Shown here piece by piece: positions 916 through 30,770 of a DNA stretch of 64,000 bases. Position 1 is the stretch's first letter, and each line of letters begins with the position of its first letter. The translations under genes were made by a program, and so were the position numbers. The stretch is from an uncultured Nocardioidaceae bacterium (GTDB taxonomy: Bacteria > Actinomycetota > Actinomycetes > Propionibacteriales > Nocardioidaceae). Below the pieces are notes generated by a model that had not been told where the DNA came from, searched no databases, and was given only the letters and a program-made list of their open reading frames with translations. Where the stretch lies: positions 1 through 64,000 of the forward strand of contig CADCUI010000002.1 in NCBI GenBank assembly GCA_902805845.1. Reading direction: 5' to 3'.

Positions 916-1100
916 AGCAGGCACTCGTCGAGGCCGCGCGCGGGCTGCGGTGGTATCTCCGGGAGGTGACCGGGGAGTCGAGGTGGGACGCATACCTCGA
1001 CGGCTGCCGTGCCGACGGCGTACCGCCGATGAGCAGGCGGGAGTTCGAGCGGCACCGGGCTGACCGTCGCGAGCGCTGCCCGCAGTCGCGCTGCTGCTGA
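912..1100 (+). CDS. YbdD/YjiX family (DUF466) small protein, CstA partner
   Basis: A 62-residue protein starting at GTG within the cstA stop (GTGA overlap). It has the family pattern: a short amphipathic helix with WYLREVTGESRWDAYL, then SRREFERHR and a Cys-containing C-terminus (CPQSRCC). Members of this family sit directly behind cstA-like carrier genes and are thought to support the carrier; their biochemical role is not settled. The 4-nt overlap implies translational coupling. Length fits the family (about 60-70 residues). Confidence 0.9.
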   Translation: MKQALVEAARGLRWYLREVTGESRWDAYLDGCRADGVPPMSRREFERHRADRRERCPQSRCC

Positions 1101-1153
1101 TCAGCGCCTCCCCGACAGTGCTTCACGCGCCGACAGGTGGGAACATCCCGAAC

Positions 1154-2584
1154 ATGCGCGACGTGGAGGTCGACCCCATTTCCCTGGAACGGCTGGTGCA
1201 GCTGTTCGAGCCCGAGCGCGCTTCGCTCGCCGCGGCCAAGGCCGAGGAGGCCCAGAAGCTGCTCGACGGCAGCATCGTCTGGAACGTCAACGCGACGGCG
1301 TCGGGTGGCGGCGTCGCCGAGATGCTGCAGGCGTTGCTGGCCTACGGCCGAGGCGCCGGCGTCGACACCAGGTGGGTCGTCCTCGACGGCACACCGGAGT
1401 TCTTCACGATCACCAAGCGCATCCACAACCTGCTGCACGGCTCTGCCGGCGATCGTGGCCCGCTGGGGGACGCCGAGAGGAGGGTGTACGACGACGTGCT
1501 CGCCGACAACCTGGAGAGCTTCCTGCCACGGGTCCGCCGCGGCGACGTCGTGCTGCTGCACGACCCTCAGACCGCCGGGATGGTCGACGGCGTCCGCGCC
1601 GCCGGAGCCCACGCCGTCTGGCGCTCCCACATCGGTCGCGACATCACCAACGAGCACACAGACCAGGCGTGGGACTTCCTGCGGCCCTACGCCGAGAAGG
1701 CCGACGCCGTCGTCTTCTCCCGCGACGACTACGTGCCGCAGTGGGTCGACCGTGACCGGCTCTGCATCGTCCCGCCGTCACTGGACCCGTTCAGCACCAA
1801 GAACCTCGACCTCCCGACGGCGGACGTCGACGCGACGCTGGCACGGGCGGGTCTCGTGGACCTGGACCCGCACGAGCGCGGTGAGGGACTCACGTTCACG
1901 CGTCGCGACGGCACCAGCGGCAGGCTCAGGGAGCACGAGGGGCTGATCATCACCGGCGGCATCGTCCCGAGGGACGCCCGCGTCGTGCTGCAGGTGAGCC
2001 GGTGGGACCGGCTCAAGGACATGCGCGGCGTGCTCACCGGCTTCGCCGCCCACCTGGACGAGATGCCGGCCGACGCGCACCTCATGCTCGTCGGCCCCGA
2101 CGTCTACGGCGTCAGTGACGATCCCGAGGGCGCCGAGGTGCTCGACGACTGCGTCGCGGCATGGCGTGAGCTGCCGGCCGAGGCTCAGGAGCGGGTCCAC
2201 CTTGTCGCCCTCCCGATGGACGACGTGGACGAGAACGCCCACATCGTCAACGCGCTGCAGCGCCACGCGACAGTCGTCGTGCAGAAGAGCCTCTTCGAGG
2301 GGTTCGGGCTCACGGTCACCGAGCCGATGTGGAAGGGCAAGCCCGTCGTCGCGTCCAAGGTCGGTGGCATCCAGGACCAGATCGTCGACGGGGAGAGTGG
2401 CCTCCTGCTCCTCGACCCCGCGGACCTGGACGCCTTCGGTCGCGTGGTCGCGAGCCTGCTCGCCGACGAGGAGCTGGCCGCCCGGCTCGGCGCCGGTGCC
2501 CGCGAGCGCGTCCGGGACCGCTTCCTGGGGGACCGGCACCTCATCCAGTACGTCGACCTCTTCCGGAACCTGGTCGCGAAGTGA
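1154..2584 (+). CDS. TreT-like trehalose synthase (GT4 glycosyltransferase)
   Basis: A 476-residue GT-B fold glycosyltransferase. The N-terminal part has WNVNATASGGGVAEML and GTPEFFTITKRIHN, signatures of TreT-type enzymes, which join an NDP-glucose and glucose into trehalose. The C-terminal half has VLQVSRWDRLKD and the nucleotide-sugar-binding SLFEGFGLTVTEPMWKGKPV block with the Glu pair of family GT4. The ATG at 1154 is preferred because it leads directly into conserved sequence with an AGGTGGG about 12 nt upstream; a GTG at 1118 in the same frame is possible. The stop overlaps the next gene by 4 nt. Trehalose synthesis is family-based inference; another acceptor is possible. Confidence 0.82.
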   Translation: MRDVEVDPISLERLVQLFEPERASLAAAKAEEAQKLLDGSIVWNVNATASGGGVAEMLQALLAYGRGAGVDTRWVVLDGTPEFFTITKRIHNLLHGSAGDRGPLGDAERRVYDDVLADNLESFLPRVRRGDVVLLHDPQTAGMVDGVRAAGAHAVWRSHIGRDITNEHTDQAWDFLRPYAEKADAVVFSRDDYVPQWVDRDRLCIVPPSLDPFSTKNLDLPTADVDATLARAGLVDLDPHERGEGLTFTRRDGTSGRLREHEGLIITGGIVPRDARVVLQVSRWDRLKDMRGVLTGFAAHLDEMPADAHLMLVGPDVYGVSDDPEGAEVLDDCVAAWRELPAEAQERVHLVALPMDDVDENAHIVNALQRHATVVVQKSLFEGFGLTVTEPMWKGKPVVASKVGGIQDQIVDGESGLLLLDPADLDAFGRVVASLLADEELAARLGAGARERVRDRFLGDRHLIQYVDLFRNLVAK

Positions 2585-3693
2585 CGCTGTCGCTCTCCGT
2601 CCTCGACCTCGTCCCTGTCCGAAGCGGGCAGACCACCTCGGAGGCCCTCCGCTCCACCATGTCGCTGGCGCAGGTAGCGGACCGGGCCGGCTTCCACCGC
2701 TACTGGGTCGCCGAGCACCACAACATGCCCGCGGTGGCGGCCACCAACCCGCCGGTCCTCATCGCGATGGTGGCCGGCGCCACCGAGCGCATCCGGGTCG
2801 GGTCCGGTGGCGTCATGCTGCCCAACCATGCGCCGCTGGTGGTCGCTGAGCAGTTCGCCCTGCTGGAGGCGGCCTACCCGGGGCGGATCGACCTGGGCAT
2901 CGGTCGTGCACCGGGGAGCGACCCGGTGACGAGCTGGGCGCTGCGGCACGGCGGTGGTGGGGTCGAGGCCGATGCGGTCGCCCGGTTCCCCGAGCACGTC
3001 GAGAACGTCCTGGCGATGATGCACCCCGAAGGGGTGGGGTTGCAGGTCCAGGGCCGGACCTACGAGCTCCGCGCGACCCCACGGGCTCGCTCCGTTCCCC
3101 CGGTCTGGCTGCTCGGGTCCTCCGACTACTCGGCCCGGCTGGCCGCCCGGCTGGGGATGCCCTACGTCTTCGCCCACCACTTCTCCGGTCAGGGCACGCA
3201 GGAGGCGCTCCACCTCTACCGTCGTGAGTTCCGCCCCGCTGACGGGGCTGTCGACGGCGGGGAGCCGAGGACCTTCCTCACCGTCAACGCCTGTGTCGCC
3301 GAGACGGAGGCCGAGGCCGCTCGGCTGTGCCGTCCGCACGAGCTGGCCATGCTCGCGCTCCGCACCGGTGCCGAGCTGCGACCCCAGCCCAGCGTGGAGG
3401 AGGCGGAGGCCGTGGTGCTGCCGCGCGAGCACGCGGCGCTGGTGGCATCGATGCGTGAACGCTGGGTGGTCGGTACGCCGGAGCAGGCCTACGCCCGGCT
3501 CGCCGAGCTCGCCGCGACGTACGGCGTCGAGGAGGTGATGGTGCACCCGGTGGCCGGCGCCCACGCGAATGACGACCCGGCGCGGAGCGAGGCGCGGGAG
3601 CACACCCTGGTCCTGCTGGCCGACGCTGCGCCGCGGGTCGACGCAACCACCGGTCCCTCCGGATCGAGCAGTCAGGCGGTCCCGTCGACGTAG
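2581..3693 (+). CDS. LLM-class flavin-dependent oxidoreductase (luciferase-like)
   Basis: A 370-residue protein starting at GTG inside the preceding stop codon. It has the bacterial-luciferase-like TIM barrel: LSVLDLVPVRSGQT at the N-terminus, YWVAEHHNMP, RIRVGSGGVMLPNHAPLVVAEQF and the GRIDLGIGRAPGSD block seen in the MsnO8-type subgroup. Members use reduced FMN (or F420) and oxygen to oxidise small organic substrates in the cytoplasm; the substrate is not predictable here. The tight coupling to the TreT-like gene is real in the sequence but has no obvious metabolic logic. The 3' end overlaps the convergent MerR-DICT gene by 22 nt. Confidence 0.87.
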   Translation: MTLSLSVLDLVPVRSGQTTSEALRSTMSLAQVADRAGFHRYWVAEHHNMPAVAATNPPVLIAMVAGATERIRVGSGGVMLPNHAPLVVAEQFALLEAAYPGRIDLGIGRAPGSDPVTSWALRHGGGGVEADAVARFPEHVENVLAMMHPEGVGLQVQGRTYELRATPRARSVPPVWLLGSSDYSARLAARLGMPYVFAHHFSGQGTQEALHLYRREFRPADGAVDGGEPRTFLTVNACVAETEAEAARLCRPHELAMLALRTGAELRPQPSVEEAEAVVLPREHAALVASMRERWVVGTPEQAYARLAELAATYGVEEVMVHPVAGAHANDDPARSEAREHTLVLLADAAPRVDATTGPSGSSSQAVPST

Positions 3694-4613
3694 GACAGCA
3701 CGCGGTTGAAGAGCGTGACCGCCTGTCCCAGGTCACCGGACCCGGCGCTGACGGGGCGGTCGGCATCCTGGAGCACCGCGGAGGTGTCGGGGCCGAGATC
3801 GGCGACGACCCGGGCACAGCACCTGGCGGCATCGCGGACCGGACCGGGGGCGACCGTCCACACGGACTCGAAGAGCCTGTCGCCCTCGGCGACGCCGTCC
3901 TGCCCCGGCAGCTCCCAGGCCGACAGCGCGGCCGGGAGGTCCGCCGCCAGGCACACCACCGACCACTCCCGCGTCATCTCGGCGCTCGGCGGTAGTCCGA
4001 CCAGCACCGGTCCCTCGCCTGAGCGCTCCTCGGCGGCCTGCGCAAAGGGGAGCTCGGCCATCACCCAGGTGCCCCGCGCCGTCCGGGAAAGGTCGGTCCA
4101 CCGGGACTCCGAGCGGCGGTAGTACCGCTCCTGCTGGAAGGCACCGAACAGCCAGGGGCGCTGAGCACGGGCGCAGCACTCGTCCTCCAGTGCCCGGCTC
4201 AAGGCGATCAGCGTCGCCTTGCGCAGCCGCTGCGGCTGGAGGTCGGGCTGGGACCGGCGGAGCTCGGCGAACACGGAGGGTGTCGGCTCGCGGGCAGCGG
4301 CCGACACCTCGCCGATAGCCGTCTCCAGCCGGACGCCGCCGTCGCGGCGGCGCAGCACCTGGGTCACCAGGTCCACGGTCCGGTCGTCGTAGCGGCGGTG
4401 CCCGCTCGGCAGCCGCTGTGGCACCGGGAAGCCGTAGCGCACCTCCCACATCCGCAGCGTCGGTGCGTTCAAGCCGGTGCGACGGGCCAGCTCGCCGACG
4501 GTCAGGCCGGCCCCAGCCGCTGCCCCCGTCGCTGTCCCCGCGGCTGTCGCTGCCGCTGCCGCGGTGCCCTCGCCGGCGAGGGGGGCTTGATTTCTGGAGG
4601 TGCGCGGGGTCAC
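3672..4613 (-). CDS. MerR-family regulator with DICT sensory domain
   Basis: A 313-residue protein. Residues 1-35 are Ala/Gly/Thr-rich and probably disordered. Residues about 36-105 are a MerR DNA-binding domain (LTVGELARRTGLNAPTLRMW, then PSGHRRYDDRTVDLV). The rest matches the DICT domain found with cyclases and two-component proteins, including the block from ALEDECCARAQRPWLFGAFQ and the GTWVMAELPF segment. GTG start; a TATGCT hexamer ends 6 nt before it, so the transcript may be leaderless. An 8-bp inverted repeat lies in the divergent promoter region. Probably controls itself and the divergent small-gene/FHA pair. The DICT ligand is unknown. Confidence 0.85.
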   Translation of the reverse strand: MTPRTSRNQAPLAGEGTAAAAATAAGTATGAAAGAGLTVGELARRTGLNAPTLRMWEVRYGFPVPQRLPSGHRRYDDRTVDLVTQVLRRRDGGVRLETAIGEVSAAAREPTPSVFAELRRSQPDLQPQRLRKATLIALSRALEDECCARAQRPWLFGAFQQERYYRRSESRWTDLSRTARGTWVMAELPFAQAAEERSGEGPVLVGLPPSAEMTREWSVVCLAADLPAALSAWELPGQDGVAEGDRLFESVWTVAPGPVRDAARCCARVVADLGPDTSAVLQDADRPVSAGSGDLGQAVTLFNRVLSYVDGTA

Positions 4614-13437: not shown

Positions 13438-14802
13438 ATGACCCGCAACGAGAGGCACCTCAGCCCCGAGGAGCTCAAGGCCCGCATCGGCTCGGGCGAG
13501 ATCGACACCGTGGTGGTCGCCTTCACCGACATGCAGGGACGGCTCCAGGGCAAGCGTCTGCACGGCGCCTACTTCGTCGACCACGTCCTGGGCCACGGCA
13601 CCGAGGGTTGCAACTACCTTCTCGGCGTCGACATCGAGATGAACACCGTGCCCGGCTACGCGATCACGTCGTGGGAGCAGGGGTACGGCGACATGGAGTT
13701 CGTCCTGGACCTCGACACGATCCGGATGCTTCCGCACCTGCCGGCCACCGCGATGGTCCAGTGCGACCTCGTGTGGCCCGATCACCGGCCGGTCCCGCAG
13801 TCGCCACGGACAGTGCTCCGTCAGCAGGTGCAGCGGGCAGCCGACATGGGATACGCCGCGCTGGCGGGGACCGAGCTCGAGTTCGTGCTCTTCGACGACA
13901 CCTACGAGAAGGCGCACGAGCTGGGCTACCGGGACCTCACTCCGGCGAACCAGTACAACATCGACTACTCGATCCTCGGCACCTCGCGGGTCGAGCCGCT
14001 GCTGCGGGACATCCGCAACACCATGTACGCCGCGGGCGCGAACGTCGAGAGCGCCAAGGGCGAGTGCAACTTCGGTCAGCACGAGATCGGCTTCCTCTAC
14101 GACGAGGTCGTCACCACCGCCGACAACCATGCGGTGTACAAGACCGTGGCCAAGGAGCTGGCCTCCCAGCACGGCAAGTCGATCACGTTCATGGCCAAGA
14201 TCGACGAGCGGGAGGGCAACTCCTGCCACATCCACCTGTCGCTGCGCGGTGCCGACGGGTCGGTGGTGTTCTGGGACGAGGAGGCCGGGCAGCGTTCATC
14301 GCTCTACGACAGCTTCGTCGCGGGGGTGCTCGCGACGATGGCGGATTTCACTCTCCTCTACGCACCGAACATCAACTCCTACAAGCGGTTCGCCGCGGGC
14401 TCCTTCGCGCCGACGGCGATCGCCTGGGGCGTCGACAACCGCACCTGTGCCCTCCGGCTCGTGGGCAGCGGGGCGGGGGCTCGGATGGAGAACCGGGTGC
14501 CTGGAGGCGACGTCAACCCGTACCTGTCGCTGGCTGCCATGCTGGCCGGCGGGCTGCACGGCATCGAAGCCGAGCTCGAGCTCGAGCCGCCGCTCGAGGG
14601 CAACGCCTACACCTCCGACCGTACCCGCGTGCCGTCGAGCCTCCGCGACGCCCGTGACGCGTTCAGCGGGTCGGCGGTGGCACGGCAGGCGCTCGGGGAC
14701 GACGTCGTCGACCACTACGCGAACATGGCCGACGTCGAGCTCAAGGCGTTCGGCGCCGCGGTGACCGACTGGGAGCTGCGCCGTGGCTTCGAGCGCATGT
14801 AG
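13438..14802 (+). CDS. Glutamine-synthetase-like gamma-glutamylpolyamine ligase
   Basis: A 454-residue GS-fold enzyme. Motifs: AGTELEFVLFDD (metal ligand Glu), NVESAKGECNFGQHEI, GNSCHIHLSL (ATP-site His), NSYKRFAAGSFAP and NRTCALRLVG. The tyrosine-adenylylation motif of primary GlnA is absent. The neighbours (SDR and gamma-glutamyl-GABA hydrolase type GATase) point to the PuuA/GlnA3 branch, which attaches glutamate to putrescine, other polyamines or ethanolamine so they can be used as nitrogen source. The exact amine is not certain. ATG with GAGGGGAAGG upstream. Confidence 0.83.
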   Translation: MTRNERHLSPEELKARIGSGEIDTVVVAFTDMQGRLQGKRLHGAYFVDHVLGHGTEGCNYLLGVDIEMNTVPGYAITSWEQGYGDMEFVLDLDTIRMLPHLPATAMVQCDLVWPDHRPVPQSPRTVLRQQVQRAADMGYAALAGTELEFVLFDDTYEKAHELGYRDLTPANQYNIDYSILGTSRVEPLLRDIRNTMYAAGANVESAKGECNFGQHEIGFLYDEVVTTADNHAVYKTVAKELASQHGKSITFMAKIDEREGNSCHIHLSLRGADGSVVFWDEEAGQRSSLYDSFVAGVLATMADFTLLYAPNINSYKRFAAGSFAPTAIAWGVDNRTCALRLVGSGAGARMENRVPGGDVNPYLSLAAMLAGGLHGIEAELELEPPLEGNAYTSDRTRVPSSLRDARDAFSGSAVARQALGDDVVDHYANMADVELKAFGAAVTDWELRRGFERM

Positions 14803-14910
14803 CCGAGTCGGCGTGAACGCACGCCGGAACCCCGCCGAGTCGGCGTGAACGCACGCCGGAACCCCACCGAGTCGGCGTGAACGCACGCCAGGACCCCGCC
14901 GAGCGGGACG
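14803..14910. repeat. Three tandem 32-bp repeats (family A)
   Basis: Copies start at 14803, 14835 and 14867, with a partial fourth at 14899. The unit is CCGAGTCGGCG, core TGAACG, CACGCC and then a CGGAACCCC-like tail. GGCGTG and CACGCC within it form a 6-bp stem. The same unit with core CTTGTG recurs near 46762. The array lies directly behind the stop codon of the ligase gene. Confidence 0.9.
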
Positions 14911-14966
14911 TCCGCGTCCTCCTCGCGCACGACTGACGCGCCCCCTCGGCAGACAGGAGAAACGAC

Positions 14967-15734
14967 ATGGCAGGACGCCTCGACCGCAAGGTCGCCACCG
15001 TCACGGGCGGGTGCTCGGGAATCGGGCTGGCGACGGTCCACCGCTTCCTCGAGGAAGGCGCGCAGGTGGTGGTCGGCGACGTCGACGACGGCCGCGGCGC
15101 GGAGCTGGCCGAGCTGCCGGGCGTGACCTACGTGCACGTCGACGTCACCGACAAGGAACAGGTGGAGGCGATGTTCGCCACCGCTCACGACACCTACGGC
15201 GCCGTCGACATCGCCTTCAACAACGCCGGCATCTCACCGCCCGAGGACGACTCGATCCTCGACACCGACCTCGACGCGTGGCGCCGCGTGCAGGACGTGA
15301 ACGTGACCAGCGTGTACCTGTGCTGCAAGGCGGTCCTGCCCTACATGCTGGAGCAGGGGCGCGGCTCGATCATCAACACCGCCTCGTTCGTGGCGGTCAT
15401 GGGGGCCGCCACCTCGCAGATCTCCTACTCGGCGTCGAAGGGCGGCGTCCTGTCGATGAGCCGCGAGCTCGGGGTGCAGTTCGCCCGGCAGGGCGTCCGG
15501 GTCAACGCCCTCTGCCCCGGCCCGGTCAACACGCCGCTGCTGCAGGAGCTGTTCGCCGCGGACGCCGAGCGAGCGGCACGCCGGCTGGTGCACGTGCCGA
15601 TGGGCCGGTTCGGGGAACCCGAGGAGATGGCCAACGCGGTGCTCTTCCTGGCTTCCGACGAGTCCTCGTTCATCACGGCCTCGACCTTCCTGGTCGACGG
15701 CGGCATCTCCGGTGCCTACGTGACGCCGCTGTGA
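14967..15734 (+). CDS. SDR-family NAD(P)-dependent dehydrogenase
   Basis: A 255-residue classical SDR: TGGCSGIGLATVH at residues about 12-24, VGDVDDGRGAELA, FNNAGISPPE, a catalytic Ser in NTASFVAVMG and YSASKGG for Tyr and Lys. The C-terminal VDGGISGAYVTPL is typical of 3-oxoacyl-ACP-reductase-like members. It lies between the GS-like ligase and the GATase, where it may oxidise an aldehyde or alcohol intermediate of amine breakdown. ATG with CAGGAGA upstream. The specific substrate is unknown. Confidence 0.88.
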   Translation: MAGRLDRKVATVTGGCSGIGLATVHRFLEEGAQVVVGDVDDGRGAELAELPGVTYVHVDVTDKEQVEAMFATAHDTYGAVDIAFNNAGISPPEDDSILDTDLDAWRRVQDVNVTSVYLCCKAVLPYMLEQGRGSIINTASFVAVMGAATSQISYSASKGGVLSMSRELGVQFARQGVRVNALCPGPVNTPLLQELFAADAERAARRLVHVPMGRFGEPEEMANAVLFLASDESSFITASTFLVDGGISGAYVTPL

Positions 15735-15750
15735 ACGGGGGGAACGGCTG

Positions 15751-16485
15751 GTGACACGACCGGTCATCGGACTCACGGCCTACCGGGAGCAGGCCAGGTG
15801 GGGGGTGTGGGACACCCGCGCCGACCTGCTGCCCACGGTCTACTCCTGGGCGGTCGAGGAGACCGGCGGGATCCCGGTCCTGCTGCCCACCACGACGCCG
15901 GCACGCGAAGCCGCCTCCGAGCTCGTCGCCCGCCTCGACGGCCTGGTCGTCTCGGGGGGCGCCGACGTCTCGCCGGCCCGCTACCAGGAACAGCCGCACG
16001 AGCGTACGACGGGGTGGCGTGACGACCGTGACGAGTGGGAGCTGGCCCTCCTGGACGCCGCCGAGGAGCACGGCACTCCCACGCTGGGCGTGTGCCGAGG
16101 AATGCAGCTGATGGCCGTCGGGGCCGGCGGCAAGCTCGACCAGCACGTCCCCGACGTGGTCAACCACCACGACCACAACCCCGGCGGCGACAAGTTCGGA
16201 GACGTCTCGGTCCAGGTCGAGGCCGGAAGTCGCCTCGAGACCCTCGTCGGCGCCCGTCTCGACGTCCACTGCCACCACCACCAGGCGGTGGCCTCGCATC
16301 CCGGCTACCGCGCCGTGGCCAGGGCCGAGGACGGGACGCTCGAGGCCATGGAGCTGCCGGGTGAGCGCTTCTGCCTCGGCGTGCAGTGGCACCCGGAGAT
16401 GGCGGTCGACGCCGGTCTCTTCACGGGGCTGGTGCGTGCAGCGGCCGGCGGTCCCGGCGGGCGACCGCCCGCGGCGCCCCGGTGA
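15751..16485 (+). CDS. Gamma-glutamyl-GABA hydrolase type class-I glutamine amidotransferase
   Basis: A 244-residue peptidase C26/PuuD-type hydrolase. Catalytic residues are visible: Cys in GVCRGMQLM and the His-Glu pair in LGVQWHPEM; GLVVSGGADVSPARY is the oxyanion-side block of the family. It removes glutamate from gamma-glutamylated amino acids such as gamma-glutamyl-GABA, the last step of the PuuA route, and so fits the GS-like ligase two genes upstream. GTG start 17 nt after the SDR stop. Direct neighbours support one operon from 13438 to 16485. Confidence 0.88.
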   Translation: MTRPVIGLTAYREQARWGVWDTRADLLPTVYSWAVEETGGIPVLLPTTTPAREAASELVARLDGLVVSGGADVSPARYQEQPHERTTGWRDDRDEWELALLDAAEEHGTPTLGVCRGMQLMAVGAGGKLDQHVPDVVNHHDHNPGGDKFGDVSVQVEAGSRLETLVGARLDVHCHHHQAVASHPGYRAVARAEDGTLEAMELPGERFCLGVQWHPEMAVDAGLFTGLVRAAAGGPGGRPPAAPR

Positions 16486-23821: not shown

Positions 23822-25630
23822 ATGGCGGTTCCGGGGCTCGACGAGGTCCTCGCCGACGTCGAGCGCCGAGCGACCGCCACGCTCGTGGAGCGGCCGGACG
23901 CGGACCCGCAGCAGGTCGCCCTCACGTCCCTGTCGGGCGCCTACCGGGACCTGCCTCTGCCGCATCCGCCCGACCCGGTCGCGCTCGGGGCGATCCACGA
24001 GGCCGTGCTGGCCCGGACCCCGGTGTGGGACGGGCGGGCGCTCCGGATGGTGGCCGGGTCCGGCCGCCGGAAGTCGCAGGGCAGCTACTTCACCCCGCAG
24101 CGGCTTGTCGACCACCTGCTCGACGAGACCCTGGAGCCGGTGCTGGACGAGGTCGACGACCCCTACGCCGTCCGCGTCCTCGACCCGGCGTGCGGAGCCG
24201 GGCTGTTCCTGGTCTCCGCGGCGCGACGCATCGCCCGCCGGGGCGTCGAACGGCACCACCTCGATGAGGCCACCGCCTACCGCCGGGCCGTGCGGTGCCT
24301 GGCGGGCGTGGACGTCGACGCTGCGGCGGTCGAGCTCGCGCGTCGCATCCTGACCTCCGGGTGGGCGAAGGAGGAGGAGGCAGAGCAGGCGGAGGAGCGC
24401 TCGGGGCACGGGACCGGCACGCACCTCGTGGTCGGTGACGCGCTGCTCGGTGTCGACTGGCGATCGGTCTTCCCTCGCGTGTTCGAACGCCGCGGTGGCT
24501 TCGACGTGGTCGTGGGCAACCCGCCCTTCCTCGGCCAGCTCTCGACCCTGACCGCACGCCGGCGGGAAGATGCGGCGCTGCTCGAGGCACAGGCGGACGG
24601 GACCCTGCGGCCCTACACCGACCTCAGCGCGGTCTTCCTGCAGCGATCCGTCGGCTGGTCGCGCCTGGGAGGTCGCATCGGGCTCGTGCAGCCGCAGTCG
24701 CTGCTCGCCGCCCGCGATGCCGCGGGTGTGCGGCGCTTCCTGTCCGACACCTGCTCCCTGGAGTCGCTGTGGGCGTCGGCCGAGCCGGTGTTCGAGGCCC
24801 GGGTGCTGACCTGCGCACCGGTGCTGCGCAACGGGGGCGGCCAGGGCCCGGTACGGCGCCACCATGGCAGGGACTTCCGCCGGCTACCGGACTCCGAGGC
24901 GCCCGACCTGTCGTCCGAGTGGTCGTTCCTGCTGGCGGCCGGGCTCGGTGTCCCGGAGGTGCGGTTGCCGCGCAGCACCGGGGTCCTGGCCGACCTGGCC
25001 GCGTGCACGGCCGACTTCCGCGACCAGTACTACGGCCTGGCGCCGTACGTCCGTGAAGCCGCCGACTGCCCGGCCGGGGCGCCGCTGGTGACCAGCGGGC
25101 TCATCGAGCCGGCCGGGTGCCGGTGGGGCCGGAGCCCCGCCCGCTACCGCAAGCGGCGGTGGGACGCGCCCGTCGTCGACCTCGAGGCGCTGGCCGCCGA
25201 CCCGGGGCTTGCCCGGTGGGCCGCGGCGAGGCGGGTGCCCAAGGTGCTGGTCGGCACCCAGGGACGGGTGATCAAAGCGGTCGCGGACCCCGCGGGGGAG
25301 TGGCTTCCCTCGGTCCCGGCGATCACGGTCACCGCTCCGCCGGAGCAGGTGTGGCACGTCCTGGCCGTCCTTCTTGCACCCCCGGTGACGGCGTTCGCCG
25401 CAGCGACCTACGCCGGCACCGCACTGTCGATGGGCGCCGTCAAGCTGAGTGCTCGGCAGGTCGCACGGCTGCCCTTGCCCGAGCAGGGCCGCGCGTGGGA
25501 CGACGCGGCGGCACTTCTCGCGCGAGCGCAGGACGGTGACAAGGGGGCACTGGAAGCGGCTGCCCAGGCGATGTGCGAGGCCTACGGTGCCGACGACGCG
25601 ACAGCGTCGTGGTGGCGGGATCGGTTGTGA
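23822..25630 (+). CDS. Orphan N6-adenine DNA methyltransferase (Eco57I-like)
   Basis: A 602-residue SAM-dependent methylase. Residues 1-90 are an acidic N-terminal region; motif I is DPACGAGLF (from Asp121); motif IV NPPF begins at Asn233 and is typical of N6-adenine methylases; the C-terminal 250 residues could be the target-recognition part (KVLVGTQGRVIKAV and KLSARQVARLPLP). No restriction-nuclease motif (PD-ExK) is evident and no restriction subunit flanks it. It may be a solitary methylase acting on chromosomal DNA, or the remains of a type IIG system. ATG with GGAGGTGAG upstream. Target sequence unknown. Confidence 0.85.
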   Translation: MAVPGLDEVLADVERRATATLVERPDADPQQVALTSLSGAYRDLPLPHPPDPVALGAIHEAVLARTPVWDGRALRMVAGSGRRKSQGSYFTPQRLVDHLLDETLEPVLDEVDDPYAVRVLDPACGAGLFLVSAARRIARRGVERHHLDEATAYRRAVRCLAGVDVDAAAVELARRILTSGWAKEEEAEQAEERSGHGTGTHLVVGDALLGVDWRSVFPRVFERRGGFDVVVGNPPFLGQLSTLTARRREDAALLEAQADGTLRPYTDLSAVFLQRSVGWSRLGGRIGLVQPQSLLAARDAAGVRRFLSDTCSLESLWASAEPVFEARVLTCAPVLRNGGGQGPVRRHHGRDFRRLPDSEAPDLSSEWSFLLAAGLGVPEVRLPRSTGVLADLAACTADFRDQYYGLAPYVREAADCPAGAPLVTSGLIEPAGCRWGRSPARYRKRRWDAPVVDLEALAADPGLARWAAARRVPKVLVGTQGRVIKAVADPAGEWLPSVPAITVTAPPEQVWHVLAVLLAPPVTAFAAATYAGTALSMGAVKLSARQVARLPLPEQGRAWDDAAALLARAQDGDKGALEAAAQAMCEAYGADDATASWWRDRL

Positions 25631-25723: not shown

Positions 25724-28636
25724 ATGGGAGACGCTTCGCCGGCTGCTTTGCAGAGGCGGTTCACTGTCGCGCTGGGAGCGGCAGTGCTGGCGTGCGCGCT
25801 CTTCGCCGGGCTGCTGAACAGCTCGCTCTCCGCCAACGACCGGCAAGCGGTCAGCGTCGCCGGGCTCATCCTCGGGGGCGTCGCCGTCGTCCTGAGCTGC
25901 GCGCGCACCGCGATGAAGGCTCGTGCCCGGCGCCGCCGCTCCTTTGTGCTGCTGGCCTCGGCCGCCGCGATCGGGCTTCTGGGAAACCTTTACGGCGCGG
26001 TGGTGTCCAGCGACTCTTCGGAGAATCCCAGCCTGCTGGTCAACGGCAGCATCATGCTCGGCATGCTGGTCTCCATCGCCGGGCTGCTGAAGCTGCCCTC
26101 GGTCCGCCAGCGGGGCGAGAAGCTCGTGCTGATGGTCCTCGACGGCTTGGTCATGGGCGGAGCGGTCCTGGTGATCGTCTCGATCGTCGTCTACTCGCGG
26201 ATGCTGAGCTCCCTGGGGTCACCGGACGCGAGCCTGGCCTTCCAGGTGGTGTGGGTGCTGCTCCCGCTGCTCGACGTCGCCTTGGCCACGGTCGCCCTGC
26301 TGCTCATCATGCGGAGCCGAGAGGCGCGGGGGTTCTTCTCGCTCATCGGCGCCGGGTTCCTCCTCTACGCCGTGTCGGACCTCGCCTACGCCGTCGAGTC
26401 GGCGCAGGACCGCTTCGGCTTCGGGACCCTTCAGGACATGGGCTGGATCGCCGGCTACCTGCTCTTCGCCGCGGCCGCCTGGCATCCCGACGCCGCCACC
26501 CCGGCGGAGGAGCGCAACATCGAGCCGACCTCCGACGTCCTGGGGACGGTGCTCGTCTTCGGCGTCCTGCTCACCGCGCTCACCGTCCAGCTGGTCTACC
26601 CCCAGAAAGAGACTCTGACCGGCACCCAGACCGTCCTCTGGCTGTTCTTCGTGCTGGCGGTCGGGATCCGGCAGAGCCTGCTGACCGCCGACAACGCGAA
26701 CCTGCGTTCCGGGCTCGAGCAGCGGGTGCGCGAGCAGACCGCCGACCTTCGCCGGATGGCCCACCGCACCGAGACGCTGCTGCGCTCGGTGGGAGACGGC
26801 ATCTACGGCGTCGACCTCGAGGGACGGATCAGCTTCGTCAACCCCTCCGGCGCACGCGCGTTGGGCTACGACCCTGACGAGCTGCTCGGCGCCAACGCCC
26901 ACGAGAGGTTCCACGCCGTGCAGGAGGACGGCAGCCCCTTCCCCGTGGACGGCTGCTACGTCACGGAGGCGATCCGTCACGGGTTCGTCTCCTCCGCCGA
27001 GGAGGACGTCTATGTGCGTGCCGACGGCAGCACCTTCCCGGTGGAGATCACCTCCAGCCCGCTCGTCGACGACGACCGCGTCTCCGGCGCGGTCGTGGTC
27101 TTCCGCGACGTCACCCAGCGGCAGGAGGTCGACCGGATGAAGAACGAGTTCCTCTCGGTCGTCAGCCACGAGCTCCGCACGCCGCTCACCTCCATCCGGG
27201 GATCTCTGGGGCTGGTGGCCAGCGGCTCGCTCGTGGAGCTCACCCCGCAGGCGGAGCGCATGGTGTCGATCGCGTTGGAGAGCAGCGAGCGGCTCACACG
27301 GCTCATCAACGACATCCTCGACATCGAACGGATCCAGTCCGGCAAGCTTCCGATGAACCTGACGCCACACGCGGCAGGGCACCTCCTCGAGGCGACGGCG
27401 ACCGAGATGAACGGACTGGCGGCCATGGCCGACGTACGCCTCGAGGTGTCGAGCGAAGCCGGGCGGGTGCTGGCCGATGCGGACCGGATGGTACAGGCGC
27501 TGACGAACCTCGTCGGCAACGCCGTCAAGTTCTCGCCGGCCGGTGCCGTGGTGCGGCTGGAGGCGGTGGCCGACGAGAGCCACATGACGTTTGCGGTCCA
27601 CGACGAGGGGCGGGGCATCCCGGAGGACAAGCTCGAGTCGGTCTTCGAGCCGTTCGAGCAGGTCGACTCCACCGACGCCCGCCAGAAGGGCGGCACGGGG
27701 CTCGGCCTGTCGATCTGCCGCGGGATCGTCGAGCGCCACGGCGGCAGGATCTGGGCGGAGAGCCATGCCGACACCGGCACCACAGTGCGGTTCACGCTGC
27801 CGAAGGTGCGCTCCCTCGACTCCGCCGACCAGGAACCCCCGTTGGACGCGCCGGTCGTGCTGGTCTGCGACGAGGACTCCGACGTGGTGACCTCGGTCAG
27901 CGCGATGCTCGGCCGTCACGGTTACCGACCGGTCGCCGTGAGCGACGGCTCCGACGTCCTGGCGCGGGCGGCGACGAGCCGGCCCGCTGCTGTCCTTCTC
28001 GGCGCCGTGCTGAACGGCAGGTCCGGGGCCGACATCCTCGGGCGGCTCAGGACGCTCGAGCGGACTCGCAACATCCCGGTCATCGCCGTCTCGGACGCGG
28101 AGAGGGAGGATGCTGGCTCATCGCTCGCCGCGGGGGCGGACGGGTGGCTGGTGAAGCCCGTGACCGAGGAGCGGCTCATCGCGACGGTGGCCACGGCGCT
28201 CGAGGGACGCCGCCGGCACGCCGGCGTCCTCATCGTCGAGGACGACGAGGACCTCGCCGGCGTCCTGCGGATGCTGCTCAGCAGCCGGGGCCTGGACGTC
28301 GCGCACGTCACTTCCGTCGAGCAGGCGGTCGCCCAAGGCAGGGTGATGCGCCCACAGGTGGTGGTGCTGGACCTGGGGCTCCCCGACGGTGACGGCTCGG
28401 AGGTCGTCGCCAGGCTCCGGGAGGAAGGCGCTCTGGAGGAGACCGCGGTCGTGGTCTACAGCGCCGACGACGTGCTCGACGAGCACGCCGACGGCCTCGA
28501 CGACAGGACCGTCTTCCTCACCAAGGCACGGGTGACCCCGGAGGAGCTCGAGGACCGGGTACTGGATCTGATCGATGCGATGACGAGGACGACAATGGGA
28601 GGCGACCTTGAGAGTGCATCAAGTTTCCGTGGCTGA
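25724..28636 (+). CDS. Membrane hybrid histidine kinase with two receivers
   Basis: A 970-residue sensor. Residues 10-315 carry about ten hydrophobic helices, an uncharacterised membrane sensor. A short coiled segment (LEQRVREQTADLRRM) and a PAS domain (about 345-465, SVGDGIYGVDLEGRISFVN) follow. HisKA has His482 in VVSHELRTPLTS; HATPase blocks are LTNLVGNAVKFSP, DEGRGIPEDKL and GGTGLGLSICRGI. Receiver 1 (about 710-825) has Gly760 in VLLGAVL instead of the phosphoacceptor Asp, so it is probably a pseudo-receiver; receiver 2 (about 832-950) has Asp883 in VVVLDLGLPDGDG and a conserved Lys. The 3' end overlaps the arginine decarboxylase gene by 29 nt. Confidence 0.92.
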   Translation: MGDASPAALQRRFTVALGAAVLACALFAGLLNSSLSANDRQAVSVAGLILGGVAVVLSCARTAMKARARRRRSFVLLASAAAIGLLGNLYGAVVSSDSSENPSLLVNGSIMLGMLVSIAGLLKLPSVRQRGEKLVLMVLDGLVMGGAVLVIVSIVVYSRMLSSLGSPDASLAFQVVWVLLPLLDVALATVALLLIMRSREARGFFSLIGAGFLLYAVSDLAYAVESAQDRFGFGTLQDMGWIAGYLLFAAAAWHPDAATPAEERNIEPTSDVLGTVLVFGVLLTALTVQLVYPQKETLTGTQTVLWLFFVLAVGIRQSLLTADNANLRSGLEQRVREQTADLRRMAHRTETLLRSVGDGIYGVDLEGRISFVNPSGARALGYDPDELLGANAHERFHAVQEDGSPFPVDGCYVTEAIRHGFVSSAEEDVYVRADGSTFPVEITSSPLVDDDRVSGAVVVFRDVTQRQEVDRMKNEFLSVVSHELRTPLTSIRGSLGLVASGSLVELTPQAERMVSIALESSERLTRLINDILDIERIQSGKLPMNLTPHAAGHLLEATATEMNGLAAMADVRLEVSSEAGRVLADADRMVQALTNLVGNAVKFSPAGAVVRLEAVADESHMTFAVHDEGRGIPEDKLESVFEPFEQVDSTDARQKGGTGLGLSICRGIVERHGGRIWAESHADTGTTVRFTLPKVRSLDSADQEPPLDAPVVLVCDEDSDVVTSVSAMLGRHGYRPVAVSDGSDVLARAATSRPAAVLLGAVLNGRSGADILGRLRTLERTRNIPVIAVSDAEREDAGSSLAAGADGWLVKPVTEERLIATVATALEGRRRHAGVLIVEDDEDLAGVLRMLLSSRGLDVAHVTSVEQAVAQGRVMRPQVVVLDLGLPDGDGSEVVARLREEGALEETAVVVYSADDVLDEHADGLDDRTVFLTKARVTPEELEDRVLDLIDAMTRTTMGGDLESASSFRG

Positions 28637-29138
28637 GGCGGACGAGCGTGACGTGGAGGCGTTGGTCCTGCCCATCTCCATCCGCACCGCCGCCGGACAG
28701 GGCCGCACTGCCATGTCGGCGTTCGACGCGGCGCTGCACGGCGCGGGGGTCTCCGACTTCAACCTCATCCGCTTGTCCTCGGTCATCCCGCAGGCCAGCC
28801 GGATCAGCTTCGACTCCGACCCGGTCGTCGGCGACCACGGCGACAAGCTGTACTGCGTGTACGCCGCGGCTCACGCCGCGCGGCCGGGGGAGACCGCCTG
28901 GGCCGGGATCGGCTGGGTCCGGGACCCGTCGGGGAACGGCCTGTTCGTCGAGCACGTCGCGGAGACCGAGGACTCCTTGCTCGAGCTCATCCACCTGAGC
29001 CTCGAGGACATGAACGAGCGGAGAGGCGGTGGGTACGGCCCCGTGGAGTCCGCGACGGCCTCGGTCACCGCCGAGGACCGGCCTGCCTGCGCGCTCGCCT
29101 TCGCCAGCTACCAGGTGGCGGGATGGGACCTCGGATGA
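28608..29138 (+). CDS. Pyruvoyl-dependent arginine decarboxylase
   Basis: A 176-residue proenzyme matching the PvlArgDC family: the block FNLIRLSSVIP contains the self-cleavage pair Ser57-Ser58, which yields a small beta chain and an alpha chain with a pyruvoyl group; ISIRTAAGQGRTAMSAFDAALHGAG and WAGIGW are further family blocks. It turns arginine into agmatine and CO2. A TTG start at 28608 has GGGAGG 5 nt upstream; a GTG at 28614 is the alternative. It starts inside the kinase gene (29-nt overlap) and ends in an ATGA overlap with the GNAT gene, so translation is probably coupled. No agmatinase is adjacent. Confidence 0.88.
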   Translation: MRVHQVSVAEADERDVEALVLPISIRTAAGQGRTAMSAFDAALHGAGVSDFNLIRLSSVIPQASRISFDSDPVVGDHGDKLYCVYAAAHAARPGETAWAGIGWVRDPSGNGLFVEHVAETEDSLLELIHLSLEDMNERRGGGYGPVESATASVTAEDRPACALAFASYQVAGWDLG

Positions 29139-29734
29139 CGACGGCACAGGAGCGGCTCAGCGCCGCGGTGACCGTGGAGGCGGCCGTCGACCAGGAGACC
29201 GCGCACCGCTTCTACAAGCTGTACGTCGAGACCTTCGGCGACCTGGCCACCAAGGCGGTCGCCCGTCAGCTGCTTCACGAGGACGAGTTCATGGCGGAGA
29301 TGCTCGACGGCCGCGTGGACAAGTACCTCGCGCACGACGAGGCGGGGACCGCCGTGGCGATGTGCACGCTGACCCGTCACCTCGAGACGGTCCCGTGGAT
29401 CAGCCCGGCGTACTTCGCGCACCACTTCCCCGAGTACGCCTCCCGCAACGCCGTCCACTACCTCGGCTTCATCCTGGTCGCCCGGGAGTACCGCGGCAGC
29501 CGGCTCTTCTTCGAGATGGTCCGGCAGGTCACCCAGACGGTGGTGTCGCGGCGTGGTCTGTGTGCCTACGACATCTGTGGTTACAACAACGAGGTGCTGG
29601 GGCTGGCCTCCGCCACGGCCTCCCTCCTGCAAGGGCTCGGGAGCTTCGACGTCCAGCGGATCGACACGCAGTCCTACTACCGCGCCACCGTCGCCACCCC
29701 GACTTTGCCCGAAATGCGTCCGCGGTCGAGGTAG
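29135..29734 (+). CDS. GNAT-like acetyltransferase family protein
   Basis: A 199-residue protein. The segment YLGFILVAREYRGSRLFFEMVRQV corresponds to the acyl-CoA-binding strand and helix of a GNAT fold, with VAREYRGSRL in place of the classical Q/RxxGxG/A loop, so the P-loop is degenerate. The C-terminal GLCAYDICGYNNEVLGLAS and the SYYRA ending are also GNAT-like. Coupling by 4 nt to the arginine decarboxylase suggests it acts on agmatine or on a protein of this island; that is inference. ATG 29135 is used; an ATG at 29123 is possible. Confidence 0.68.
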   Translation: MTTAQERLSAAVTVEAAVDQETAHRFYKLYVETFGDLATKAVARQLLHEDEFMAEMLDGRVDKYLAHDEAGTAVAMCTLTRHLETVPWISPAYFAHHFPEYASRNAVHYLGFILVAREYRGSRLFFEMVRQVTQTVVSRRGLCAYDICGYNNEVLGLASATASLLQGLGSFDVQRIDTQSYYRATVATPTLPEMRPRSR

Positions 29735-29779
29735 GCTCCTAGACTCGCCGGAGGAGTCCACGCGAGAGGAGTCGTCGTC

Positions 29780-30235
29780 GTGCCAGGTCGCATGGTGCTC
29801 GTGGTCGACGATGACGACGAGATTCGGGAGATCACCACGCTCGCCCTCGAGATCATGGGCGGCTGGGAGGTCATCGACGCGGACCGGGGCGCGGCTGCCT
29901 TGCGGATGGCGCGCGAGCACCGGCCCGACGTGGTGCTGCTCGACGTCATGATGCCGGAGATGGACGGCCCCACGACCTTCCGCCACCTGCAGGGCGACGC
30001 GGTGACCTGTGACATCCCGGTCATCCTGCTGACGGCCAAGGTGCTGGCCGGTCACGCCCAGCTCTGGGACGACCTGCCGGTCACCGGCGTCATCAGCAAG
30101 CCGTTCAACCCCACGACGCTCTCCGACGAGATCGACCGGCTTCTCGACGCCCGCGCCGAGCGGACCCGGCCCCAGATGGCCAAGGCCCGCTGTCTGCCTG
30201 ACACCGCAGCAGGGGTGGCACGCCACCTACCCTGA
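29780..30235 (+). CDS. Single-domain response regulator (CheY-like)
   Basis: A 151-residue stand-alone receiver. Acidic pocket at VVDDDDE, phosphoacceptor Asp55 in VVLLDVMMPEMDGP, Thr-like switch in ILLTAK and the conserved Lys in ISKPFNP. No output domain follows; residues 125-151 are a short tail. It can accept phosphate from the hybrid kinase upstream and act by protein contact, like CheY or SpoIIAA-type adaptors. GTG start with GAGAGGAG upstream, 45 nt after the acetyltransferase gene, probably in the same transcript. Confidence 0.92.
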   Translation: MPGRMVLVVDDDDEIREITTLALEIMGGWEVIDADRGAAALRMAREHRPDVVLLDVMMPEMDGPTTFRHLQGDAVTCDIPVILLTAKVLAGHAQLWDDLPVTGVISKPFNPTTLSDEIDRLLDARAERTRPQMAKARCLPDTAAGVARHLP

Positions 30236-30239
30236 GGTC

Positions 30240-30770
30240 ATGCGCCTGCCCTTCGTGCCCGGACCTCGCGATGTCGTCGAGCTCGTCGAGCGTTGCACGA
30301 CGGCCCTCGACCAGGTGCTCGCCGCCGCGCCGAGGCTGGGGAAGCTCTTGGACGACGTGGAGCAGATCGTCGGCGACGTCAACGCGCTGGTCGCCCGGAT
30401 CGAGGGCACCCGGCGCTCGGCCGACGACCTCATCGGCCGGCTGGAGCTGCCGGTGCAGCGGCTGCTCCCGCTGCTGGACTCGGTTGAGCCGCCGCTCACC
30501 GCCCTGCAGCCGACCTTGGAGAGGCTGGCCGAGACCACCGACCCGAAGGAGGTCGACGCCCTCGTCGCCCTGGTCGACCACCTGCCCGTCCTGGTGGGAC
30601 AGCTGGAGCGAGACATCCTTCCGATCCTCTCGACCCTCGGCAGCGTCGCGCCCGACCTGCACGACCTGCTCGACACCTCGAAGCAGCTCAACGTGATGCT
30701 GGCCCGGCTGCCGGGATACGGTCGCATCAAGCAGCGGGTCGAGGAGGAGCAGGCTGCCCGGGAGGACTGA
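30240..30770 (+). CDS. Helical protein of unknown function
   Basis: A 176-residue, almost entirely helical protein with heptad-like Leu and Val spacing over residues 20-160 (DVVELVERCTTALDQVL, LLDDVEQIVGDVNALVARIEG, LVALVDHLPVLVGQLERDI). It has no signal peptide or membrane span. Similar actinobacterial proteins are sometimes wrongly labelled as RuBisCO large subunit; no RuBisCO motif is present. The start is only 4 nt after the receiver gene's stop, so it is probably the last gene of the kinase island. A coiled-coil adaptor or scaffold role is possible; function not recognised. Confidence 0.72.
   Translation: MRLPFVPGPRDVVELVERCTTALDQVLAAAPRLGKLLDDVEQIVGDVNALVARIEGTRRSADDLIGRLELPVQRLLPLLDSVEPPLTALQPTLERLAETTDPKEVDALVALVDHLPVLVGQLERDILPILSTLGSVAPDLHDLLDTSKQLNVMLARLPGYGRIKQRVEEEQAARED

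Follow-up and report, generated by a model that had tools for sequence, protein, structure and literature searches.

Why would an enzyme that produces an amine be encoded among genes for signal transduction? The question is posed by positions 25724-30770 of a 64,000-nucleotide stretch (hereafter the window: positions 1 to 64,000 of contig CADCUI010000002.1, assembly GCA_902805845.1) from an uncultured bacterium of the family Nocardioidaceae, where a hybrid sensor histidine kinase, a pyruvoyl-dependent decarboxylase, a GNAT-like protein, a stand-alone receiver and a coiled-coil-like protein are encoded one after the other. A sequence-only reading of this DNA had regarded the five genes as an island and had suggested a polyamine-linked signalling system. 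Comparison with related genomes revealed that the locus is a conserved module of four genes, namely kinase, decarboxylase, GNAT and receiver; the explanation that we favour, with a probability of about 0.4, is a conserved module for ligand synthesis and sensing, in which an amine ligand would be produced and acylated on the spot and then detected by the neighbouring membrane receptor.

Conservation of the neighbourhood had been chosen beforehand as the point on which the proposal could fail, and four of the genes proved to be neighbours in the majority of 38 kinase-type genomes. A profile of the kinase sensor matches 74 of 226 genomes of the family, 36 of them strongly (at least 295 bits, the next match having 137), and the GNAT gene, detected in 34 of the 226, occurs exclusively among these 36 (Fisher p 2e-38); at the level of the class, the decarboxylase is found in 12 of 394 genomes and the GNAT in 20, one of which (G140; 37 residues, E 6.5e-4) is probably a chance match, and all 12 decarboxylase genomes have the GNAT gene adjacent (Fisher p 5e-18; both p-values ignore relatedness). 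The kinase-type set, which consists of the 36 strong-sensor genomes plus G037 and G300, has the GNAT in 36 of 38 genomes (absent in G004 and G587), the decarboxylase in 36 (absent in G003 and G587) and a receiver near the sensor in 37 (absent in G024); counted by locus, the figures are 36, 35 and 36, respectively, the difference being due to the G526 module, which is split over two contigs. The order sensor-decarboxylase-GNAT-receiver on one strand is present in 26 of the 38; among the remaining 12, four have the GNAT-decarboxylase pair inverted, two have the receiver divergent upstream and six are otherwise arranged, incomplete or split. The neighbourhood is kept despite rearrangement, which argues for a function beyond that of an inherited block, and the link of an amine-making enzyme with signalling is well supported by a neighbourhood that is conserved in varied order and strand. 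The distribution is patchy, since the decarboxylase is found in 6 of a set of 58 genomes that includes the window's own. In 39 kinase-type stretches, where a table of 22 flanking families was built from genes predicted by a simple caller made for this analysis, four gene families are present in 34-38 loci, the most frequent of the others in only 10. The coiled-coil-like gene (30240..30770, + strand), which has no Pfam family, was looked for by tblastn in 67 related loci (23 + 18 + 26) and had no match at E<=1e-3; a five-gene unit was rejected for this reason, so that four genes of the island hold together and the fifth is judged a downstream neighbour outside the module.

The decarboxylase gene (28608..29138, + strand) encodes a member of the pyruvoyl-dependent arginine decarboxylase (PvlArgDC) family, as first read: it matches PF01862 with E 8.3e-23 and 81.5 bits, well over the curated cut-off of 22.7, and a profile from 14 module decarboxylases matches solved archaeal PvlArgDCs (1n2m, E 2.3e-16). 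The equivalents of Asp35, Asn47, the Ser52-Ser53 cleavage site and Glu109 are retained in 56 of 56 module decarboxylases, a set that omits the fragmentary L030 copy. Conversely, the window enzyme falls under the TIGR00286 equivalog cut-off (53.7 vs 106.95 bits; a Nocardia copy has 59.7), and Leu51, Val54, Asp71, Trp95, Phe107, Val108 and His110 are each fixed in 56 of 56 module enzymes, while among 12 non-module comparators (11 PvlArgDCs of other classes in the phylum, plus the archaeal one) one has Val54 and one has His110; three of these fixed residues adjoin the catalytic Glu109. By their sequences, the module decarboxylases are a divergent subfamily, lower-scoring than the archaeal PvlArgDC. 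Self-cleavage and decarboxylation by the module enzyme are likely, and arginine is a likely substrate, though unproven because of this divergence. A search of 251 genomes of the phylum with PF01862 gave 15 matches at E<=1e-3, 14 of them exceeding the cut-off; from the window's class there were just two, that of the window itself and that of G161, both in module loci, and the matches in other classes have 54-147 bits, plus one of 19.8, under the cut-off. Of the 13 non-module matches, 11 were aligned as comparators, a fragment and the sub-cut-off match being omitted; no GNAT or sensor was detected in the flanks of the other-class genes, examined for at most ~1.5 kb on each side.

The third gene (29135..29734, + strand, in an open reading frame (ORF) that opens at 29123) is predicted to encode a GNAT-fold acyltransferase. 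No Pfam or NCBIfam model matches it above its cut-off, the Pfam match to PF00583 (Acetyltransf_1) being sub-threshold (E 0.0029, 18.3 vs 20.7 bits), and a sequence search of solved structures gave a single match at chance level (E 0.73). The AlphaFold2 model (mean predicted local distance difference test score, pLDDT, 75.2) has a GNAT fold, in agreement with the initial label: its 36 matches in the PDB at E<=1e-3 are all acetyltransferases by title, with a best Z of 11.8. However, NatD, Naa60, PaiA, a viral polyamine acetyltransferase, LasI (Z 10.4) and FeeM (Z 10.5) are nearly tied, so that the acceptor cannot be assigned from the fold; assignment from sequence families was likewise dropped, nothing being above cut-off, and a weak 'homospermidine biosynthesis' match (E 0.005) was treated as chance. 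Comparison of 62 GNATs, from 64 loci with a match (the fragments L030 and L161 were omitted), revealed nine invariant residues, Tyr30, Phe34, Glu51, Phe52, Leu83, Ser90, Pro99, Tyr109 and Asp146, all of which are also retained in the GNAT of G072, added later; such conservation is what would be expected of an enzyme.

The kinase (25724..28636, + strand) comprises a membrane part at roughly residues 1-325 with ~10 hydrophobic helices, PAS, HisKA, with H482 as the phospho-acceptor His, HATPase_c and two receivers. The sequence-only reading was right about the helices and the PAS domain; its single pseudo-receiver is ruled out, since only the first receiver has Gly in place of the phospho-Asp (LLGAVL) and the second retains the Asp (VVVLDLGLP). 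The structure model of the sensor domain is too poor (pLDDT 51) to serve for a fold comparison. The stand-alone receiver, a single-domain response regulator (29780..30235, + strand), matches PF00072 with E 1.8e-22, confirming its first description, and, as in the kinase receiver 2, phospho-Asp and Lys are both retained; by Pfam and sequence, the elements of a two-component phosphorelay are all present, namely the His of HisKA, the HATPase domain and the Asp of a receiver. At a threshold of at least 80 bits against the window's own receiver, no receiver was found in any of 29 cyclase-type loci, described below, though 27 of them retain the GNAT; a laxer search of these loci gave one weak receiver, 31% identical, in L078. 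That the receiver tracks kinases and not cyclases is expected if it accepts phosphate from the kinase.

In other lineages, a diguanylate cyclase, in some cases with EAL, carries a sensor of the same family and takes the place of kinase and receiver. Nocardia (18 loci) and G161 have the decarboxylase and GNAT pair followed by a GGDEF protein; the Nocardia loci derive from one decarboxylase-seeded search with species repeated, so their decarboxylase count is biased. In G067 and G090 the cyclase is divergent beside the decarboxylase-GNAT pair, with a PAS-GGDEF-EAL protein in G090 and the order of the pair reversed relative to the reading direction in G067, and in G173, G122, G089, G106, G309 and G212 the GNAT stands alone, tail-to-tail with a cyclase-type sensor protein. 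Domains were checked by Pfam in L013, L071, L078 and L073, the last three of which carry EAL. By hhalign, the membrane domains of the two types can be aligned across 264 columns (98.8%, E 9.2e-17); the score may be raised by membrane composition, but conserved polar motifs coincide throughout the domain, and from this alignment the two belong to the same sensor family. A tree built from 72 sensor domains (17 of 38 kinase-type, 16 of 29 cyclase-type, two of them now without GNAT, and 39 unlinked, five of these from genomes with the GNAT beside another sensor copy) places the GNAT-linked sensors in three separate clades: the kinase clade (100/100), the Nocardia-f12-f43 cyclase clade (100/97) and the f14 pair (100/100) among unlinked ones. 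This suggests that the sensor family was paired with this GNAT more than once, in three separate pairings; instead of separate gains, the GNAT may have been lost from the unlinked relatives. A single linked clade of kinase- and cyclase-type sensors with swapped outputs was ruled out by the tree. The cyclase-sensor profile matches 148 of the 394 class genomes, 11 with at least 309 bits (the next has 198), and 9 of these 11 top-scoring sensors sit in GNAT loci. Since the family is so common, chance pairing with the GNAT in a given genome is not negligible; repeated and persistent chance pairing is unlikely. The ten-helix domain was also observed away from any GNAT (L092-L110 and others), and Pfam did not recognize it in any of six proteins analysed.

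The GNAT and the sensor are the core of the module, because the GNAT retains its sensor neighbour where the decarboxylase is missing, that is in seven loci, six cyclase-type and one kinase-type (G003). The decarboxylase is in the locus for 55 of the 62 GNATs, the seven without becoming eight with G072. Where it is present, GNAT position 43 is A in 55/55, position 47 is L in 52/55 and position 55 is E in 52/55; in its absence these positions are Q/M/V in six f12/f43 copies, N/F/T in G003 and Q/L/V in G072, so that positions 43 and 55 differ in 8/8 and position 47 in 7/8. The six f12/f43 copies deviate at positions 86, 88 and 104 as well, and G072 at 88 and 104, but G003 at none of these three. 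In a tree covering 31 of the 62 GNATs, the G003 protein groups with that of the window (90/90, under the tree's mark for firm support), which is why G003 seems to have lost the decarboxylase separately. Given the few independent lineages, the correlation of residue changes with absence of the decarboxylase is suggestive only, and this joint change fits either substrate use or physical contact. A deletion was observed in Nocardia xishanensis (L030:8025-8423), where the decarboxylase start is fused to the GNAT end and the cyclase is intact, indicating either a degenerate locus or an assembly error.

The persistence of GNAT and sensor without the decarboxylase is the reason for favouring a ligand that is produced and sensed locally. 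The decarboxylase would cleave itself at Ser52-Ser53 and convert a basic amino acid, most likely arginine and possibly ornithine, to the amine; this would be acylated by the GNAT, with an acyl-CoA or acyl carrier as donor, and the sensor would bind the product through its membrane domain. Both receiver 2 of the kinase and the stand-alone receiver would then be phosphorylated by the kinase; in the cyclase versions, a similar input would alter cyclic di-GMP (c-di-GMP). In lineages without the decarboxylase, the GNAT may use another amine, in line with the changes at the shared GNAT positions there. More tentatively, the module could define a new class of bacterial small-molecule signalling, in which an acylated basic amine, such as an N-acyl-agmatine, is made by decarboxylase and GNAT and read by a widespread ten-helix receptor; this receptor would be coupled to a phosphorelay or to c-di-GMP according to the lineage, and receptor-only genomes would listen in on a cell-to-cell signal. 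G410 and G087, two genomes of G161's genus with similar locus neighbours, are possible receptor-only genomes; L111 has a weak GNAT-like remnant (20 residues, E 0.004).

Several findings weigh against a ligand made and sensed at the locus. The sensor family is common (148/394 genomes in the class, 74/226 in the family), so most members work without this GNAT; G410 and G087 (L111, L112) keep the cyclase sensor without GNAT or decarboxylase, the kinase loci of G004 and G587 are without the GNAT, and in G072 (L079) the GNAT has no sensor or decarboxylase within ~7 kb. The structural ties of the GNAT span protein, polyamine and acyl-homoserine-lactone enzymes, and among copies with the decarboxylase there is one Val at position 55 and one Phe at position 47. 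Apart from the four, no gene family, and so no exporter, is a recurrent neighbour in the 39 kinase-type stretches. Finally, 10 of the 16 decarboxylase genomes tested for the fate of the amine (out of 39) carry an agmatinase-family enzyme.

The strongest rival, on account of the PanZ-PanD precedent, is a CoA-sensing GNAT that matures or inhibits the decarboxylase, with the signalling proteins controlling or reading amine metabolism; we consider it unlikely. In PMC4410942, a GNAT is described that triggers pyruvoyl formation in the aspartate decarboxylase PanD and also inhibits that enzyme. Decarboxylase and GNAT are indeed adjacent and co-directional in 34 of 34 kinase-type loci with both, and on the second contig of G526, and a contact surface might equally produce the changes at GNAT positions 43, 47 and 55. 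Yet the seven loci that retain the GNAT beside the sensor without a decarboxylase argue against this as its sole role, G004, whose genome is 82% complete, has the decarboxylase and no GNAT in the locus, and the related archaeal PvlArgDC self-processes without a GNAT.

Also improbable is ordinary polyamine metabolism under local control, in which making and acetylating a polyamine would serve growth, export or detoxification, with the amine or its precursor being sensed by the kinase. Among 23 genomes with decarboxylase and/or GNAT, 17 have an enzyme of the agmatinase/arginase family, and one has agmatine deiminase; besides, a glutamine-synthetase-like, an SDR (short-chain dehydrogenase/reductase) and a Peptidase_C26 gene lie in a row at 13438-16485 of the window, 9-12 kb upstream, resembling a cluster for breakdown of gamma-glutamyl amines that could serve this purpose, though the first scores under the gamma-glutamylputrescine synthetase cut-off. 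However, both known entry enzymes from agmatine to putrescine are missing in 6 of the 16 decarboxylase genomes (G024, G200, G210, G435, G037 and G300). A study of other pyruvoyl decarboxylases argues that an arginine decarboxylase is of benefit only if there is a route from agmatine to putrescine (PMC10407285); such a route is not always present here, in keeping with a role other than putrescine supply or with a substrate of the ornithine type. Polyamine genes do not recur as a family in the flanks of the 39 kinase-type stretches, and GNAT and sensor persist without the decarboxylase. This persistence would also suit a GNAT that modifies the sensor, the receiver or another protein, its activity being merely tuned by the decarboxylase product, and the N-terminal acetyltransferases NatD and Naa60 are among the top-ranked folds (Z 11.3-11.8), tied with many others; such protein acylation is nevertheless highly improbable, since GNAT changes correlated with the presence of the decarboxylase would not be expected and the GNAT stays in 27 of the 29 cyclase loci, all of which lack the receiver.

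As for the layout of the locus, the six-frame ORF listing of the window and a simple codon-position gene caller, the latter with some later starts, agree on five co-directional ORFs on the + strand, and the arrangement first reported is therefore reproduced. The TTG at 28608 is the probable decarboxylase start, having GGGAGG 5 nt upstream, and gives the 29-nt overlap with the kinase noted initially (8 nt with the alternative GTG at 28629); the 4-nt overlap of decarboxylase and GNAT is true with the ATG at 29135. The receiver gene has a GTG start with AGAGGAG upstream and an alternative ATG at 29792. In the relative G004 (L009; same genus, draft genome 82% complete), where kinase, decarboxylase and receiver are present without a GNAT at the locus, the gene caller gives 1564..3441 for the kinase and 1014..1592 for the decarboxylase, on the minus strand, and the overlap is again 29 nt. 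A scan for promoters and terminators gave nothing above chance, such a scan being uninformative for the host organism. Elsewhere in the window, an Eco57I/MmeI-type N6 DNA methylase-like gene lies directly upstream of the kinase (23822-25630) and a MerR regulator with a DICT sensory domain at 3672-4613; in G024 (L011:9115-13127) the module is directly followed by a Hen1-type RNA repair gene (Hen1_L) and then by a gene with a P-loop kinase-like start, judged from the start sequence only.

If the module does make and sense its own ligand, it would provide a ligand class for a large family of orphan membrane sensors (148/394 class genomes) and a guanidino- or polyamine-derived signal in an actinomycete group, where, to our knowledge, few small-molecule autoinducers besides gamma-butyrolactones are known; if one of the rivals holds instead, the module would still represent a second pairing of a GNAT with a pyruvoyl decarboxylase, or a phosphorelay that senses polyamines. 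Since both enzymes are small and soluble, a test should be easy. No description of the module, and no system with this gene order, was found by searches aimed at it in one open-access library, most subscription journals being outside it, which agrees with the first impression; the module is apparently undescribed. The archaeal PvlArgDC (1n2m, 1mt1) belongs to the same Pfam family and shares the catalytic residues with the module enzyme, which differs by its lower-scoring subfamily and by fixed residues, some of them adjoining Glu109. NspS-MbaA reportedly conveys a polyamine input to a c-di-GMP-modulating membrane protein via a periplasmic binding protein, whereas none recurs beside the module in the 39 kinase-type stretches; we know of no pairing of MbaA with a synthase gene, nor of any link of PanZ to a sensor. 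LqsA/LqsS is said to combine, like CqsA/CqsS, an alpha-hydroxyketone synthase with a sensor-kinase receptor. In the module the GNAT, a putative ligand synthase, and the membrane sensor, its putative receptor, are encoded by neighbouring genes. Agmatine N-acetyltransferase of Drosophila (PMC5647378) is a GNAT enzyme acylating agmatine, but it is an insect enzyme whose kinship with the module GNAT is one of fold. PanD-PanZ (PanM), as presented in PMC4410942, similarly joins a pyruvoyl-dependent decarboxylase to a GNAT-fold protein, while the module GNAT also persists without the decarboxylase. CqsA/CqsS, as outlined in PMC3376566, has a small-molecule synthase and a transmembrane sensor kinase that feeds a phosphorelay, the synthase making alpha-hydroxyketones, where the module has a pyruvoyl decarboxylase and a GNAT, and cyclase outputs in addition; no component is shown to be a member of the CqsA/CqsS families, and it is by its proposed behaviour that the module resembles such synthase-receptor pairs.

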